In this document: positions 3,721-8,124 of the stretch, one piece after another
How the letters are laid out: the number at the start of each line of letters is the position of its first letter
Position numbering within the stretch: position 1 is the stretch's first letter
Source: Clostridia bacterium
GTDB taxonomy: Bacteria; Bacillota; Clostridia; Oscillospirales; CAG-272
Assembly: GCA_017462385.1 (NCBI GenBank)
Contig: JAFTRE010000030.1
Coordinates: 43,917-107,916, forward strand
Length of the DNA: 64,000 nucleotides
Reading direction: 5' to 3'
Made by a program: the position numbers and the translations under genes
The notes under the pieces: generated by a model
What the model was told of the DNA's origin: nothing
The model's input: the letters and a program-made list of their open reading frames with translations, nothing else
Database searches by the model: none

Positions 3721-5346
3721 TTATTGTTCAATGTCAAACTCAAATTTGGTATGTTCAAAATACAGCGTGTTGTGCGCGACGGAGGTGCGGTCGGCGTCTG
3801 CCCAGTAATCGGCGGTGTTTGAGTGCGCGTTATAAGTGGGAAAGTTGGAGGATGAGACGTCGATGCGAAGCCGGTCGCCCTTTTGTAAGGTCCAGGCGAT
3901 CTGGTCGAGATCAAAGCACAGCGCCACGCGACTGCCGGGCGTGTAGCTGTCGCATAGGTCGGATATGGATACGATAGTGTCGCGGACACACCACGCCACG
4001 CCGTCACGAATTATGTCGGCGCGGACGAAAAAAGCAGTGTCGGGGCAGTCGGAGGACACCTCGAGCGTTGCGTGTATTTTGCCGTCCAGCGAGACGGGGG
4101 AGTTAAGGGGGGCACTGACAAAGCTGAGCACATCGGGACGGTGATCCGGGGCAGGCTGTGGCTGCATGCCGCCGTTGCCCGACTGGAAAACATTTGCACC
4201 GCCCGGAAAATGAGCGGGATGCTCGGGGTCGTATTTGTAGGACAGCGAGCCGACGACGGGTGTGGATTGCAGTGAGCCGCCATACGCAGGGCAGAGAGTA
4301 AGACGCGCGTTGGCGCGTTGGCCGAGATTTGGAGTACATATCCAGCCATCACCTGCACGGTAGTAGGTGGTTTGTCCTTTTTTGACGTGTGTCAGCGGGG
4401 TGCCGAGACGTATGTGGTCAAACCATTCCGCCTCAACGGCGGGGTGTTTTGAATCGGGGAAAAGCGATTCATGCTCGGGCGGTGTTTCCATCGAGTGCCA
4501 CCACGGCCCCATATACATAGCCGAAATTCGGCGAGCGTCCGGGTTGAGACGCTCCCAATAATCCAGCATGCCGCGGTAGTGTATGTCGTAAAATCCGCCG
4601 ACCAGAAGCAGAGGTATTTTTATCTCCTCGGGCGCGCGTGCAGCGTAGCGAAATCCCTCGTCTGTGTACCAAAAGTCATCGTCGGCGTGATTGTTGCGGA
4701 ATATATTTGTTATTTCGGGCAGAGATTCGCCGTAAACACGCTCGTCGAGCTTTGAAAGCGGGCGATGCTTTAGCTGTTCGTGCATGAGCGCGAATTTTTG
4801 CTTTGTGTTTATATGATTCCGCATAAAATAGCGCGCGATCCACAGTGTGTAAAGGTCATGCTTTGCGGTGTTGCGTTCGTAGCATATGTGAAATTGGTTA
4901 GCGGGCATAACGGCAAGCGCCGCCGCCTTGACATCGGGCGGATTTGTACCGATATAAGTCGAGTGTATATAGGATTTGTAGCTGGCACCGTAAAGATATA
5001 TTTCCCCATTGTAAAATGACTGCTGTCTTATCCAATCCAGCGTGTCGAGGCTGTCTGTGCGCTCGTATTTCATCATGTTACGGAACACACCCTCGCTTGA
5101 GCCCGACCCGCGGCAGTGTTGATTGACAACTATATAGCCACGTTCAAGAAAATCCGTGAACGGTGGCTTAAGGTATGACGGGTCAAACGGTGATCGGGAG
5201 ACGGGCGGCTCGTAGGGCGTGCGATGAAAGACCACAGGACGGCGCGCGCCTTGCTCGTAATGCTCAGGGAACATTGTTCGGGTATACAGCAAGGTGCCGT
5301 CCGATGCGCGCACCATTTCTTCGGTAAATTGCGGAATATATTTCAA
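3721..5346 (-). CDS. CocE/NonD family hydrolase (X-Pro dipeptidyl-peptidase-like)
   Basis: Serine hydrolase of the CocE/NonD (peptidase S15) family, which hydrolyses esters or proline-containing peptides. The nucleophile elbow YGASYKSY puts Ser at residue 122. The Asp is probably in GGFYDIHYRG and the His in GPWWHSME, and a C-terminal jelly-roll domain follows (about 330-541). No signal peptide, so it is likely cytoplasmic. The frame begins with TTG, preceded at good spacing by GGAGATC; the first internal ATG is ten residues in and lacks a comparable site, so TTG is preferred. Single gene with its own promoter; substrate unknown. Confidence 0.85.
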   Translation of the reverse strand: MKYIPQFTEEMVRASDGTLLYTRTMFPEHYEQGARRPVVFHRTPYEPPVSRSPFDPSYLKPPFTDFLERGYIVVNQHCRGSGSSEGVFRNMMKYERTDSLDTLDWIRQQSFYNGEIYLYGASYKSYIHSTYIGTNPPDVKAAALAVMPANQFHICYERNTAKHDLYTLWIARYFMRNHINTKQKFALMHEQLKHRPLSKLDERVYGESLPEITNIFRNNHADDDFWYTDEGFRYAARAPEEIKIPLLLVGGFYDIHYRGMLDYWERLNPDARRISAMYMGPWWHSMETPPEHESLFPDSKHPAVEAEWFDHIRLGTPLTHVKKGQTTYYRAGDGWICTPNLGQRANARLTLCPAYGGSLQSTPVVGSLSYKYDPEHPAHFPGGANVFQSGNGGMQPQPAPDHRPDVLSFVSAPLNSPVSLDGKIHATLEVSSDCPDTAFFVRADIIRDGVAWCVRDTIVSISDLCDSYTPGSRVALCFDLDQIAWTLQKGDRLRIDVSSSNFPTYNAHSNTADYWADADRTSVAHNTLYFEHTKFEFDIEQ

Positions 5347-5406: not shown

Positions 5407-5539
5407 TGATTTGTGCATAAAAATTCAAAAAATTTATTACGGCAGTGTGATTGCGTTATAATTTAATGAAGTTGGGGTTGTTATAGACGAAATCACTTTA
5501 CATACAGCAATTTTTGTCTGTTTTTCGCCTATTTGTGTC

Positions 5540-5568
5540 TTGCAATCGGACAAATATTGTCATATAAT
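5540..5568 (+). promoter_or_regulatory. sigma-A promoter for the Gfo/Idh oxidoreductase
   Basis: TTGCAA at 5540-5545, 17-nt spacer, TATAAT at 5563-5568, 39 bases before the start codon. A second TATAAT at about 5456 has no clear -35 box. Confidence 0.75.
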
Positions 5569-5607
5569 ATTCTCAAAGACATATACCTTGAAAGGCAGGG
5601 GACTATT

Positions 5608-6666
5608 ATGAGCAATAAAAAGAAAGCCGCAGTTATCGGTTACGGAGGCATGGGCGGTTGGCATACCCGCTATCTTTTGCAGAGTGACGTTATCGAGCTG
5701 GCGGGAATTTATGATATAAAGCCCGAGCGGTGTGCGCTTGCCGAGCAAAACGGCATACACGCATACGATTCGCTCGAGCAGCTTCTTGCAGACGAGACGG
5801 TAGAGCTGGTAACCATTGCAACTCCCAATGAGCTTCACAAGCCGCTTGCCATCAAGGCGTTGGCGGCGGGCAAGAACGTCATTTCCGAGAAGCCTGTTAC
5901 GCTGTCAAGCGCTGATCTTGCCGACATGATCGCGGCGTCGAAAAAATACGGCAAGTTGTTTACCACGCACCAGAATCGCCGTTGGGACTGCGATTATCTT
6001 ATGATGAAGCAGGTGTATGCGTCGGGAGAGCTGGGCGAGGTCACCTCTGTTGAATCGCGCATTCACGGCTCTCGCGGTATCCCGGGTGACTGGCGCGGCA
6101 AAAAGGAGCACGGCGGCGGCATGATACTCGACTGGGGCGTGCACCTCATCGACCAGATGCTGGGAATTATTTATGACAAAAAGATACAGTCCATATACTG
6201 CCGTTGCTATCATATAACCAACTATGAGGTTGATGACGGCTTCCGTCTTGAGCTTTATTTTGAAGACGGACTGACCGCGCTGATCGAGGTCGGCACCAGC
6301 AACTTTATCTCGCTGCCGCGTTTCTATATGACGGGTACCAACGGCTCGGCTATGGTCAATGACTGGCGCGAGGACTGCCGCGTGGTCTGCTGTAAGAACT
6401 GGGATGAGAAAGATGTCGTTCCCGTTGTGACTGCGGCGGGTCTGACCAAGACCATGGCACCGCGCGATGAAAAGACTATTACCGAGAGCTTTGTCCGCAG
6501 ACCCGATTCGGACGTACATGACTTCTATCGCAATGTTTGTGCCGCAATTGACGGCAAGGAGACTCAGATAGTCACGCACGAGCAGCTCATGCGCGTAATG
6601 CGTGTGATGGAGGCGGCGTTTGAGTCGGACAGACTCGGCAGACCCGTGCAGTTTGAAGACAGATAA
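5608..6666 (+). CDS. Gfo/Idh/MocA family oxidoreductase
   Basis: NAD(P)-dependent sugar or inositol dehydrogenase. Rossmann motif GYGGMG at residues 11-16, family motif SEKPVTLS near residue 95, then the C-terminal alpha/beta substrate domain with GGGMILDWGVHLID near residues 170-183. The frame extends 25 codons further upstream, but that part overlaps the promoter. ATG 5608 has AAAGGCAGGGG just ahead of it and gives 352 residues, typical of the family. It stands alone in its transcript and is followed by a 639-base non-coding block. The substrate cannot be told. Confidence 0.9.
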   Translation: MSNKKKAAVIGYGGMGGWHTRYLLQSDVIELAGIYDIKPERCALAEQNGIHAYDSLEQLLADETVELVTIATPNELHKPLAIKALAAGKNVISEKPVTLSSADLADMIAASKKYGKLFTTHQNRRWDCDYLMMKQVYASGELGEVTSVESRIHGSRGIPGDWRGKKEHGGGMILDWGVHLIDQMLGIIYDKKIQSIYCRCYHITNYEVDDGFRLELYFEDGLTALIEVGTSNFISLPRFYMTGTNGSAMVNDWREDCRVVCCKNWDEKDVVPVVTAAGLTKTMAPRDEKTITESFVRRPDSDVHDFYRNVCAAIDGKETQIVTHEQLMRVMRVMEAAFESDRLGRPVQFEDR

Positions 6667-6697
6667 TTAATATTGATAAAATAAAGTTCGCCCGCCG

Positions 6698-6912
6698 ATA
6701 TGCGTGATGTCCTTAACGGACGATCACTCGTCGAGATAAATCCCTGACGGGATTTTCGATATGTTGCTTACGCAACTCGATATGCCTACGGCTCGATATG
6801 TTTGCTACGCAAACGAGGGATTTATCTCATATCGAATTGGCGCGAAGCGACAATATATCGAGTTCGAGCAAAGCGAGAACATATCGAGTCAACGTAGTTG
6901 ACATATCGACAG
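6698..6912. repeat. array of short unlike hairpins separated by TCGATAT/ATATCGA
   Basis: Eight small stem-loops follow one another: 6704-6727, 6739-6754, 6763-6776, 6784-6792, 6800-6814, 6837-6853, 6862-6880 and 6888-6902. Most stems are perfect and each has a different sequence, for example GTTGC/GCAAC, GTTTGC/GCAAAC and GTCAAC/GTTGAC, with loops of 3-5 nt. The spacers are TCGATAT on the left and its reverse complement ATATCGA on the right. A 13-bp inverted repeat (GAGATAAATCCCT at 6733-6745, AGGGATTTATCTC at 6816-6828) encloses hairpins 2-5. No protein is encoded. It resembles a non-autonomous repeat element more than a regulatory leader. Confidence 0.75.
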
Positions 6913-7008
6913 AATAAAAAAAGAGCAAAAATACACGCTTTGTTTTCATACACACGTTAGTGTTGCTTTTGAAAGTTGTGTCGCAGCAATAGAAGCCGTG
7001 TATTTTTC

Positions 7009-7035
7009 GTGCGCGGCTTCGGCTGCGCACTTTTT
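7009..7035 (+). terminator. rightward terminator-like hairpin
   Basis: GTGCGCGGC, loop TTCG, GCTGCGCAC, then TTTTTG. The stem has one internal mismatch. No plus-strand gene ends just before it, so it may belong to the repeat element. Confidence 0.45.
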
Positions 7036-7052
7036 GTTTGGAGGTGATAGTA

Positions 7053-7076
7053 ATGAACGCCAATGAATACATATAG
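7053..7076 (+). other. seven-codon ORF with a strong ribosome site, possibly an amber-interrupted remnant
   Basis: GGAGGTGAT stands eight bases before an ATG that encodes MNANEYI and then TAG. Past the TAG the same frame stays open for about 50 codons, with a basic stretch (LLRRKSKISRKE). The ribosome site is better than those of many real genes here. It could be a leader peptide, a decayed small gene or chance. No function can be proposed. Confidence 0.25.
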
Positions 7077-7145
7077 GGAACGCACGAAAAGCACGGCTCC
7101 GAATTGTTGCGACGCAAATCAAAAATATCACGTAAAGAGAACACA

Positions 7146-7169
7146 AAAAGCCCGCCGGTCTCGGCGGGC
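7146..7169 (-). terminator. leftward intrinsic terminator with no leftward gene before it
   Basis: GCCCGCCG at 7150-7157 pairs with CGGCGGGC at 7162-7169 around a 4-nt loop. The T-run (plus-strand AAAAA, 7145-7149) makes it a terminator for minus-strand transcription only. Confidence 0.55.
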
Positions 7170-7246
7170 AAACTTTATAAAAAGCACTTTTTGAGTAATT
7201 ACATTGCATTTTTTTGTATTTACTTGTAATTACCCTTTAAATGTTG

Positions 7247-7275
7247 TTGATTTGCTTGTTTTTAAGTGATAAAAT
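7247..7275 (+). promoter_or_regulatory. sigma-A promoter for the isomerase-like gene
   Basis: TTGATT at 7247-7252, 17-nt spacer, TAAAAT at 7270-7275, followed by a GGGAGAT ribosome site before ATG 7306. Confidence 0.65.
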
Positions 7276-7305
7276 ATTCGTACAATAAAAATTGGGAGAT
7301 AAAAA

Positions 7306-8124
7306 ATGAGAAAAACAGGTACGATCTTCAGACCCGTCAAGGGTAAAGACAACGCATATCTTGCCGAATACATACGTTCACTGGGTTTTGACTGCGTATT
7401 TACAGGCTACCCCAGTCCCGAAAAGGTGGAGGCGTTTGCCGAGACCTTTGCCCGTGCCGGGCTTTATTATGAGAGCATACACGCCCCTTTTCAGAACATG
7501 AACGATATCTGGGCGCATGGCGAGGAGGGAGAGGCCATGCTTGCCTGGCTGATGGCGTGCCTTGAGGACTGCAAGCGGCTGAATGTTCCCGTTATGGTAG
7601 TGCATTTGAGCAAGGGCATAACTCCACCGTCCGTCAACGATATAGGGCGCTCGCGCTGGGACAGACTTGTCGACGCGGCGGTAAAGGGTGGTGTTAAGAT
7701 AGCATTTGAAAACCAAAGATTTTTGGCAAACATTGCTTTTGTTATGGAGCTTTATAGGAATGTTCCCCAGGTAGGCTTTTGCTGGGACTGCGGACATGAG
7801 AACTGCTATACGACAAATATCGAATTTATGAAGCTGTTCGGCGACAGACTGATGTATACTCACATACATGACAACAACGGTATCGTTCACGGTGTGCTTG
7901 AAAACCAGACAGCCGACGATCTGCACCTTATCCCTTTTGACGGCAATTTGAATTATAACCGCTTTGCCGAGCATATCCGAAATTCCGGCTTTGACGGCAC
8001 TCTGACGTTGGAGCTGTGCGGCTACAACAAAAACGGCTATGACGAAAAATACACCGTCGAGCAGTTTCTTGCAAAAGCATATGATTCGGTGGCGAAGCTT
8101 GTCAAAATGTGTGACGGGGAATGA
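7306..8124 (+). CDS. sugar phosphate isomerase/epimerase-like TIM barrel
   Basis: AP endonuclease 2-type (xylose isomerase-like) TIM barrel of 272 residues. Metal-ligand signatures: SIHAPF near residue 58, VVHLSKG near 103, KIAFENQ near 131 (a Glu ligand), FCWDCGHE near 158 (Asp, His), THIHDNNG near 186 (His-x-His) and LTLELCGY near 228. Members isomerise or epimerise sugars, inositols or their phosphates. Start supported by GGGAGAT. It may act with the dehydrogenase upstream, as inositol or sugar pathways often pair these families, but the two are on separate transcripts. Substrate unknown. Confidence 0.85.
   Translation: MRKTGTIFRPVKGKDNAYLAEYIRSLGFDCVFTGYPSPEKVEAFAETFARAGLYYESIHAPFQNMNDIWAHGEEGEAMLAWLMACLEDCKRLNVPVMVVHLSKGITPPSVNDIGRSRWDRLVDAAVKGGVKIAFENQRFLANIAFVMELYRNVPQVGFCWDCGHENCYTTNIEFMKLFGDRLMYTHIHDNNGIVHGVLENQTADDLHLIPFDGNLNYNRFAEHIRNSGFDGTLTLELCGYNKNGYDEKYTVEQFLAKAYDSVAKLVKMCDGE

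Follow-up and report, generated by a model that had tools for sequence, protein, structure and literature searches.

A family of worded DNA mini-hairpin arrays in Clostridia and its candidate four-helix protein partner

In a 64,000-nucleotide stretch of a Clostridia bacterium contig (JAFTRE010000030.1; hereafter the window), eight short stem-loops are strung on a recurring 7-nt word. We conclude that this array is very probably a gene-less copy of a family of hairpin-array elements. The full explanation we propose, with a probability of about 0.6, is that the array is a non-autonomous copy of a mobile DNA element with a four-helix protein as its partner. The core of the element is two inverted arms, each of 3-4 short hairpins split by a 7-nt word, here KCGATAT. 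The protein would bind an arm and read the word between hairpins with GNA or GNNA loops in single-stranded or extruded DNA. The resulting complex would assist copying or insertion of the element; where a word family has a promoter adjoining arm B, it may also regulate the protein's own gene. A sister element's protein would move, or would once have moved, gene-less copies in trans.

Architecture of the array

Direct reading of positions 6695-6909 bore out the eight stem-loops in 215 bases (6702-6902) that a sequence-only reading of this DNA had described, joined by 7-nt linkers. The array sits between open reading frames (ORFs) at 5533-6666 and 7306-8124, both on the forward strand. Its parts are listed here by position in the window.

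6695-6909, no strand assigned: whole array, a convergent two-armed element without a gene, delimited by direct reading, the inverted repeat and family members
6702-6727, no strand assigned: hp0, a large imperfect outer hairpin beyond arm A, preceded by the variant linker CCGATAT at 6695-6701
6731-6814, forward strand: arm A, with linkers TCGAGAT at 6731 and TCGATAT at 6756, 6777 and 6793
6738-6755, 6763-6776, 6784-6792 and 6800-6814, forward strand: arm A hairpins A1, A2, A3 and A4, in slots conserved in a 16-element alignment
6733-6745, forward strand: left half of a 13-bp inverted repeat, comprising the linker end and the 5' half of A1; its long-range pairing is kept in relatives
6816-6828, reverse strand: centre segment, the right half of the 13-bp inverted repeat; its long-range pairing is kept in relatives
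6829-6909, reverse strand: arm B, with linkers ATATCGA at 6829, 6855, 6881 and 6903; a C at 6910 lies beyond the outer edge
6836-6854, 6862-6880 and 6888-6902, reverse strand: arm B hairpins B3, B2 and B1

Several details of the earlier description needed adjustment. The linkers had been given as exactly TCGATAT or ATATCGA, which is true of seven of the nine; the outermost two on the left are variants (CCGATAT and TCGAGAT). The spacer, called constant, varies over the whole class, in which about 20 words occur. The 13-bp inverted repeat exists and is 100% complementary, but what lies inside it is three complete hairpins and the greater part of a fourth rather than four. As for the statement that most stems are internally perfect, the outer hairpin is imperfect, B3 has one G.A mismatch and B2 a tandem GA/GA mismatch.

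The 215 bases fold with z = -8.6 under DNA parameters and -5.0 under RNA parameters, and none of 200 shuffles was as good. In the lowest-energy single-strand fold, A1, A3, A4, B3, B1 and the outer hairpin form locally, while arm A pairs with arm B via the linkers and the A2 and B2 stems. No Rfam family rose above its cutoff at the array, and an Rfam scan of positions 6400-7400 returned no rRNA; the array is not inside a 23S rRNA gene. Because neither the ORF list nor tblastn placed a four-helix ORF near it, we call the array gene-less. A second, unrelated repeat directly adjoins it at 6964-7040, built around a GC-rich hairpin followed by T's; it matches 7 to 8 other places in the same genome (75-92%).

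For covariation we aligned 16 convergent elements, picked for their clean two-armed form. They share the slots B1-B2-B3, the centre segment and A4-A3-A2-A1, and many have the additional outer hairpin hp0 beyond A1. Pairing holds in 90.8% of cells across these paralogues; two-sided changes number 137, compared with 43.8 in shuffles, and are seen in 31 of 39 pairs, which upholds the proposal that structure, not primary sequence, is preserved. The covariation score is 0.578, compared with 0.221 when shuffled and at most 0.139 when slid; paralogues and near-copies are not independent, and permutation and Fisher numbers here and below are not exact probabilities. Further pair types were not above shuffles in this stem test (69/500 as high). 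The centre copies the linker end and half of A1, allowing a long-range pairing with A1 that is kept in 91.6% of cells in the 16 elements; its further pair types, too, were not above shuffles (255/500 as high).

Smaller regularities recur in the family. A TC/TC double mismatch is present in 29 of 69 imperfect hairpins, the window's instance being 6862-6880, and at the B edge TCGATAT is preceded by G in 15 of 17 cases, matched in the window by the C at 6910 after ATATCGA. Some arm pairs are divergent, and some arms stand alone.

Copies, sister words and Gut-1

The window's own genome (an assembly of 1.76 Mb, 83% complete) contains 51 matches to TCGATAT-N8-24-TCGATAT against one for the reversed control pattern. 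Together with the stem covariation, this runs counter to a single copy, the outcome that the sequence-only reading had named as telling against it. In the window and 12 fetched array regions of this genome, TCGATAT copies flank 50 segments, of which 48 form hairpins with at least three outer pairs, compared with 245 of 10,000 shuffled segments (2.5%); there are 35 distinct stems.

Triple matches to KCGATAT occur in 13 of 39 genomes, the own genome included, and 10 of the 13 have at least two; reversed controls gave zero. Of the two remaining genomes in its genus, one has a single match and the other has none. At the corresponding locus in G001 and G002, also of this genus, the upstream gene is present and the fetched sequence contains no KCGATAT word, but the alignment ends near the gene end and the comparison therefore carries little weight. 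Two or more hairpins between TCGATAT words were found in at least 51 genome-contig loci (51 of 120 among the stretches listed). Among these listed stretches, the titles are all of Clostridia type (Clostridia, Oscillospiraceae, Ruminococcaceae, Ruminococcus, Christensenella) and many of the contigs come from ruminant guts. Arrays are also present in 7 of 112 viral stretches (L086, L091, L096, L152, L171, L173 and L186), which include two pairs of near-identical contigs. In one Christensenella MAG (L242, 505-1445), a KCGATAT arm lies inside a tandem duplication of ~396 bp.

KCGATAT is one word of many. A word-blind detector, which seeks hairpins joined by an identical linker, recovered from the same loci KCGATAT together with ATGAATT, GTGAAGT, GCTAAAT, ACATCAT and others; one set of linker counts comes from loci chosen by TCGATAT. 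Arms built on other words again have about four hairpins, the same centre appears in L231 and L264, and gene-bearing loci use about 20 linker words. Elements of different words can be neighbours: a KCGATAT element adjoins ATGAATT arrays in L077 (1968-2364) and a complete GCTAAAT element in L264 (2717-3165).

One sister word leads to a described motif, Gut-1 (Rfam RF01706), which the passages cited propose as a noncoding RNA of the human gut only (Weinberg et al. 2010, PMC2864571). Gut-1 models one arm of the sister group with the word RTGAAAT: its three hairpins, split by 7-nt aUGAAAU/GUGAAAU, are one arm of the same architecture. It is present in 23 of 39 relatives, with 20 copies in the own genome, and it matches arms in four-helix gene loci and both strands of one array. 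The window shares with it a row of hairpins with conserved 7-nt linkers, of a different word, and scores 12.2 bits against it (cutoff 50; E 8.7), in register over 6729-6804. The passages cited describe one arm as RNA, without an inverted second arm, other words, gene or mobility. The claim that no known family has this design thus gives way for the RTGAAAT sister group and stands for the window, which is below the cutoff; the match to a described family that was to count against the array exists for that sister group only.

The four-helix gene beside fuller copies

Fuller copies adjoin a gene whose product of ~115 aa belongs to the four-helix-bundle family PF05635/TIGR02436 ('23S rRNA IVP'); the related PDB entries 2rld and 2gsc each list five chains. 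Among the listed clusters of genes near arrays, the four-helix one alone stood at 0-25 bases from arrays throughout its 6 loci. By tblastn the gene lies beside KCGATAT arms in 8 loci; in L055 it stands between two arms. Directly downstream of that two-armed element is a lysine riboswitch (4936-5108). In the own genome, the first 28 codons of the gene remain beside an array (L038), and two PF05635 genes accompany arrays with the words ATGAAAT and ATGATAT (L420, L545); no intact PF05635 gene with KCGATAT was found in this 83% complete assembly. Most fetched KCGATAT arrays have no four-helix gene nearby, and a 40% relative of the protein (L305) has no recorded arm.

A protein profile was used to fetch 156 gene loci (30, plus 26 new, plus 100 by place), which are not all matches. 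An array lies within 600 bp of the gene in 75 of them by a strict test and in 79 by a strict or relaxed test, leaving 77 in which neither test detected one; the strict detector recovered 6 of the 8 known KCGATAT gene loci. As controls, 1 of 820 shuffles gave an array, and flanks of the same size gave none at 30 RAYT loci and none at 21 other loci. Among 81 array-positive gene loci, 6 of them chosen by their arrays, the array is upstream only in 67, on both sides in 10 and downstream only in 4. Near-perfect sigma-70-like promoters (0-1 mismatch) lie within 75 nt upstream in 28 of the 81 and in none of 810 shuffles, and the start codon is often 15-21 nt from the outer linker in loci of the TCGATAT and ATGAATT types.

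The limits of homology outline the unit. Of 73 pairs of similar gene loci in which neither end of the homology runs off the locus, 54 lose it between -20 and +5 nt from the stop codon; it begins 190-300 nt upstream of the gene in 45 and extends more than 60 nt past the stop in 9; the gene-bearing unit is therefore about 0.6 kb. Across 39 genomes, which are not independent, PF05635 co-occurs with KCGATAT arrays (Fisher p = 0.00044, rho 0.64) and with Gut-1 arrays (Fisher p = 0.0011, rho 0.75).

The linker word follows the protein. In 79 of the 81 loci (protein of at least 100 aa), protein identity and word mismatches correlate at r = -0.433, a value reached in 0 of 2000 permutations. The signal holds below 70% identity (r = -0.292, 0/2000) and is absent below 50% (278/2000). 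In 35 of 79 cases the nearest neighbour below 80% identity has the same word; 500 permutations gave a mean of 4.6 and a maximum of 15. The correlation shows a single inherited unit and fits recognition of the word by the protein without proving it; shared descent as one unit explains the link without recognition.

Many gene loci lie downstream of tRNA genes. A tRNA gene, of 16 isotypes in all, ends within 600 bp upstream on the same strand in 71 of 156 loci and on the opposite strand in none; in 7 of 156 a tRNA lies within 600 bp downstream. Controls gave 0/51. KCGATAT array loci gave 0/105, so the window's word type shows no tRNA preference. In a rough tree of 152 of the 156 loci (at least 90 aa, few columns), one part of 134 rows contains 73 of the 74 rows with an array and every one of the 38 with only a tRNA, and 38 of the 77 array-less gene loci (within L409-L564) are still downstream of tRNA genes. 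Elsewhere in the phylum the four-helix family has neither array (0/30) nor tRNA (0/30), and the link therefore belongs to one group. Close relatives (e.g. L416, L453, L475 and L504) belong to different families within the order. Such spread could also arise from errors in MAG binning, and because homology between L416 and L475 reaches both flanks, wrong binning is possible there.

Fuller copies resemble 23S rRNA intervening sequences, as described in the passages cited, in being small elements with a PF05635-type (S23/IVP) gene beside RNA genes, here tRNA genes (PMC4990558); unlike these, they lie outside 23S rRNA and have worded hairpin arrays. In a paper on CRISPR clustering, a figure legend names 23S rRNA IVP as one of the domains associated with CRISPR arrays (PMC10910872), and hairpin arrays might have been taken there for CRISPR-like repeats.

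DNA or RNA, movement and rival explanations

The loops carry a strand signature. Among 453 perfect distinct hairpins of all words, 401 have a C-G closing pair. GNA accounts for 147 of 258 triloops and GNNA for 100 of 170 tetraloops on the strand where the reverse word is read; the other strand has none of either. In DNA, the loop forms d(C-GNA-G) and d(C-GNNA-G) have unusual stability, while RNA GNRA loops need a purine at the third position. Here the third base of GNNA is a purine in 51 and a pyrimidine in 49. Folding energy favours the same strand under DNA (129 v 19) and RNA (118 v 34) parameters, and energy alone is therefore undecisive. Since loop polarity flips with the arm, a symmetric DNA element fits better than one transcript, and DNA hairpins are favoured over RNA. 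Flip-flop inversion of the loops, suggested by one pair of copies in L077, is not general; loop polarity is one-sided.

We think it unlikely that the arrays are instead a structured noncoding RNA or mRNA leader, with selection on the transcript and a four-helix protein that may bind RNA. Rfam lists Gut-1 as an sRNA, arms that match it lie in gene loci, the array has a strong RNA fold (z = -5.0), and the outer linker at 15-21 nt from the start codon suggests that the array may be in a leader. Yet the arms are favoured on opposite strands, so that any one transcript has one arm disfavoured. The absence of a purine preference (51:49), the match of Gut-1 to both strands of one array and the promoters within 75 nt upstream in 28 of 81 loci also argue against it.

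Returning to a mobile DNA element, comparisons of related sites are consistent with movement. The same phage in two metagenomes (L322/L323) has an array just after a gene, and ten relatives (L324-L333) show none in the bases compared; L334/L335 have an array in the space separating two phage genes, which in L336 is a short gap. In L238, two copies share 213 bp (97.7%) in unrelated flanks, and two copies in L077 share 194 bp (97.4%). Homologous phage array copies are identical pairs, and few independent insertions are therefore seen. No target-site duplication was found, no catalytic gene was found within the element, and edges are blurred where homologous phage loci lack the array. Of the roles proposed from the sequence, a non-autonomous mobile element has the best support, from copies that are multiple, patchy among relatives and absent from phage homologues, from the two ~213-bp copies in unrelated flanks and from fuller copies with a gene; recombination substrate and structured RNA stay on the list.

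Two further features neighbour phage arrays. A second inserted repeat of another type (cccctcagtc...ggggagcc) follows position 4711 of L322, and a similar stretch occurs elsewhere in L324. In L086 the adjacent gene, which we take to be an HUH-type replication gene, was considered as a partner; ten relatives lack the array, making it a chance neighbour.

Single-strand hairpins are the substrate of Y1 (HUH) enzymes, which speaks for a REP/REPIN-like repeat moved by a RAYT or other Y1 (HUH) transposase; we nevertheless regard this as the least probable reading. In the passages cited, REP, BIME and REPIN sequences are, like the arrays, short palindromes lying between genes, each hairpin having a conserved tag next to it, and often form inverted pairs (PMC3733652). 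The arrays differ in being rows of unlike hairpins, each flanked by a 7-nt word, KCGATAT or related, rather than by GTAG or CGTC at the hairpin foot, and in having no RAYT association. Across the 39 genomes, arrays are unrelated to Y1_Tnp (p = 0.46 and 1) and to RAYT-type genes (p = 0.7 and 0.17), and the own genome has no RAYT match at E <= 0.001, a threshold at which searches for PF01797-type genes and reverse transcriptases may miss distant forms. The flanks of 5 RAYT loci held no array, nor did the detector find one in 30, and a relaxed scan of whole RAYT loci found arrays in 2 of 30. A RAYT/Y1 partner, suggested by weak PF01797 matches in array genomes, was set aside when a profile built from seven proteins showed no link.

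Very improbable, too, is a retro-mechanism like that of diversity-generating retroelements (DGRs), with a reverse transcriptase in trans, even though the DGR protein Avd shares the four-helix fold. DGR targets are the nearest experimental parallel: according to the passages cited, they need a DNA hairpin with free stem sequence and a GRNA loop (PMC3240598). They differ in having one hairpin, a reverse transcriptase and no linker word. Array-bearing G000 (the own genome, 83% complete), G012, G013, G016 and G026 have no PF00078 match, and reverse transcriptases show no association with arrays across the 39 genomes (p = 0.25 and 1), so we rejected them as partners. We give equally little credence to a resident regulatory site, an operator or terminator of the four-helix gene now spread by recombination only, with gene-less arrays as relics. 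A promoter adjoins arm B in several word families, most arrays listed are intergenic and the phage copies leave few independent insertions, all as such a site would have it. Against it stand the paired copies of ~213 bp in unrelated flanks (L238) and ~194 bp (L077), similar proteins in different families and arrays in phage contigs.

Already known are one sister-group arm, in Rfam, and tagged mobile palindromes; the whole system is undescribed in the literature searched, as the open-licence PMC papers yielded nothing on worded hairpin arrays with PF05635 genes. Tentatively, and at odds we put below even, these are a new class of mobile element in which a four-helix protein would recognise rows of 7-nt-worded DNA mini-hairpins and spread them, both next to tRNA genes and in gene-less form, while the element itself lacks a transposase, reverse transcriptase or integrase. 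Word and protein would have co-diverged into about twenty specificities, with Gut-1, and possibly rRNA intervening sequences, as parts or cousins. Three loose ends would then be tied: the orphan motif Gut-1, the widespread 23S rRNA IVP/TIGR02436 proteins and the hairpin arrays of gut Clostridia. The words are a natural series of protein-site pairs in which recognition is testable. If the DNA reading is true, one genome is under selection for numerous DNA hairpins, extruded or single-stranded, and the system offers a clue to the movement of IVP-coding elements. The four-helix protein may recognise the arrays, which would give that protein family a partner.
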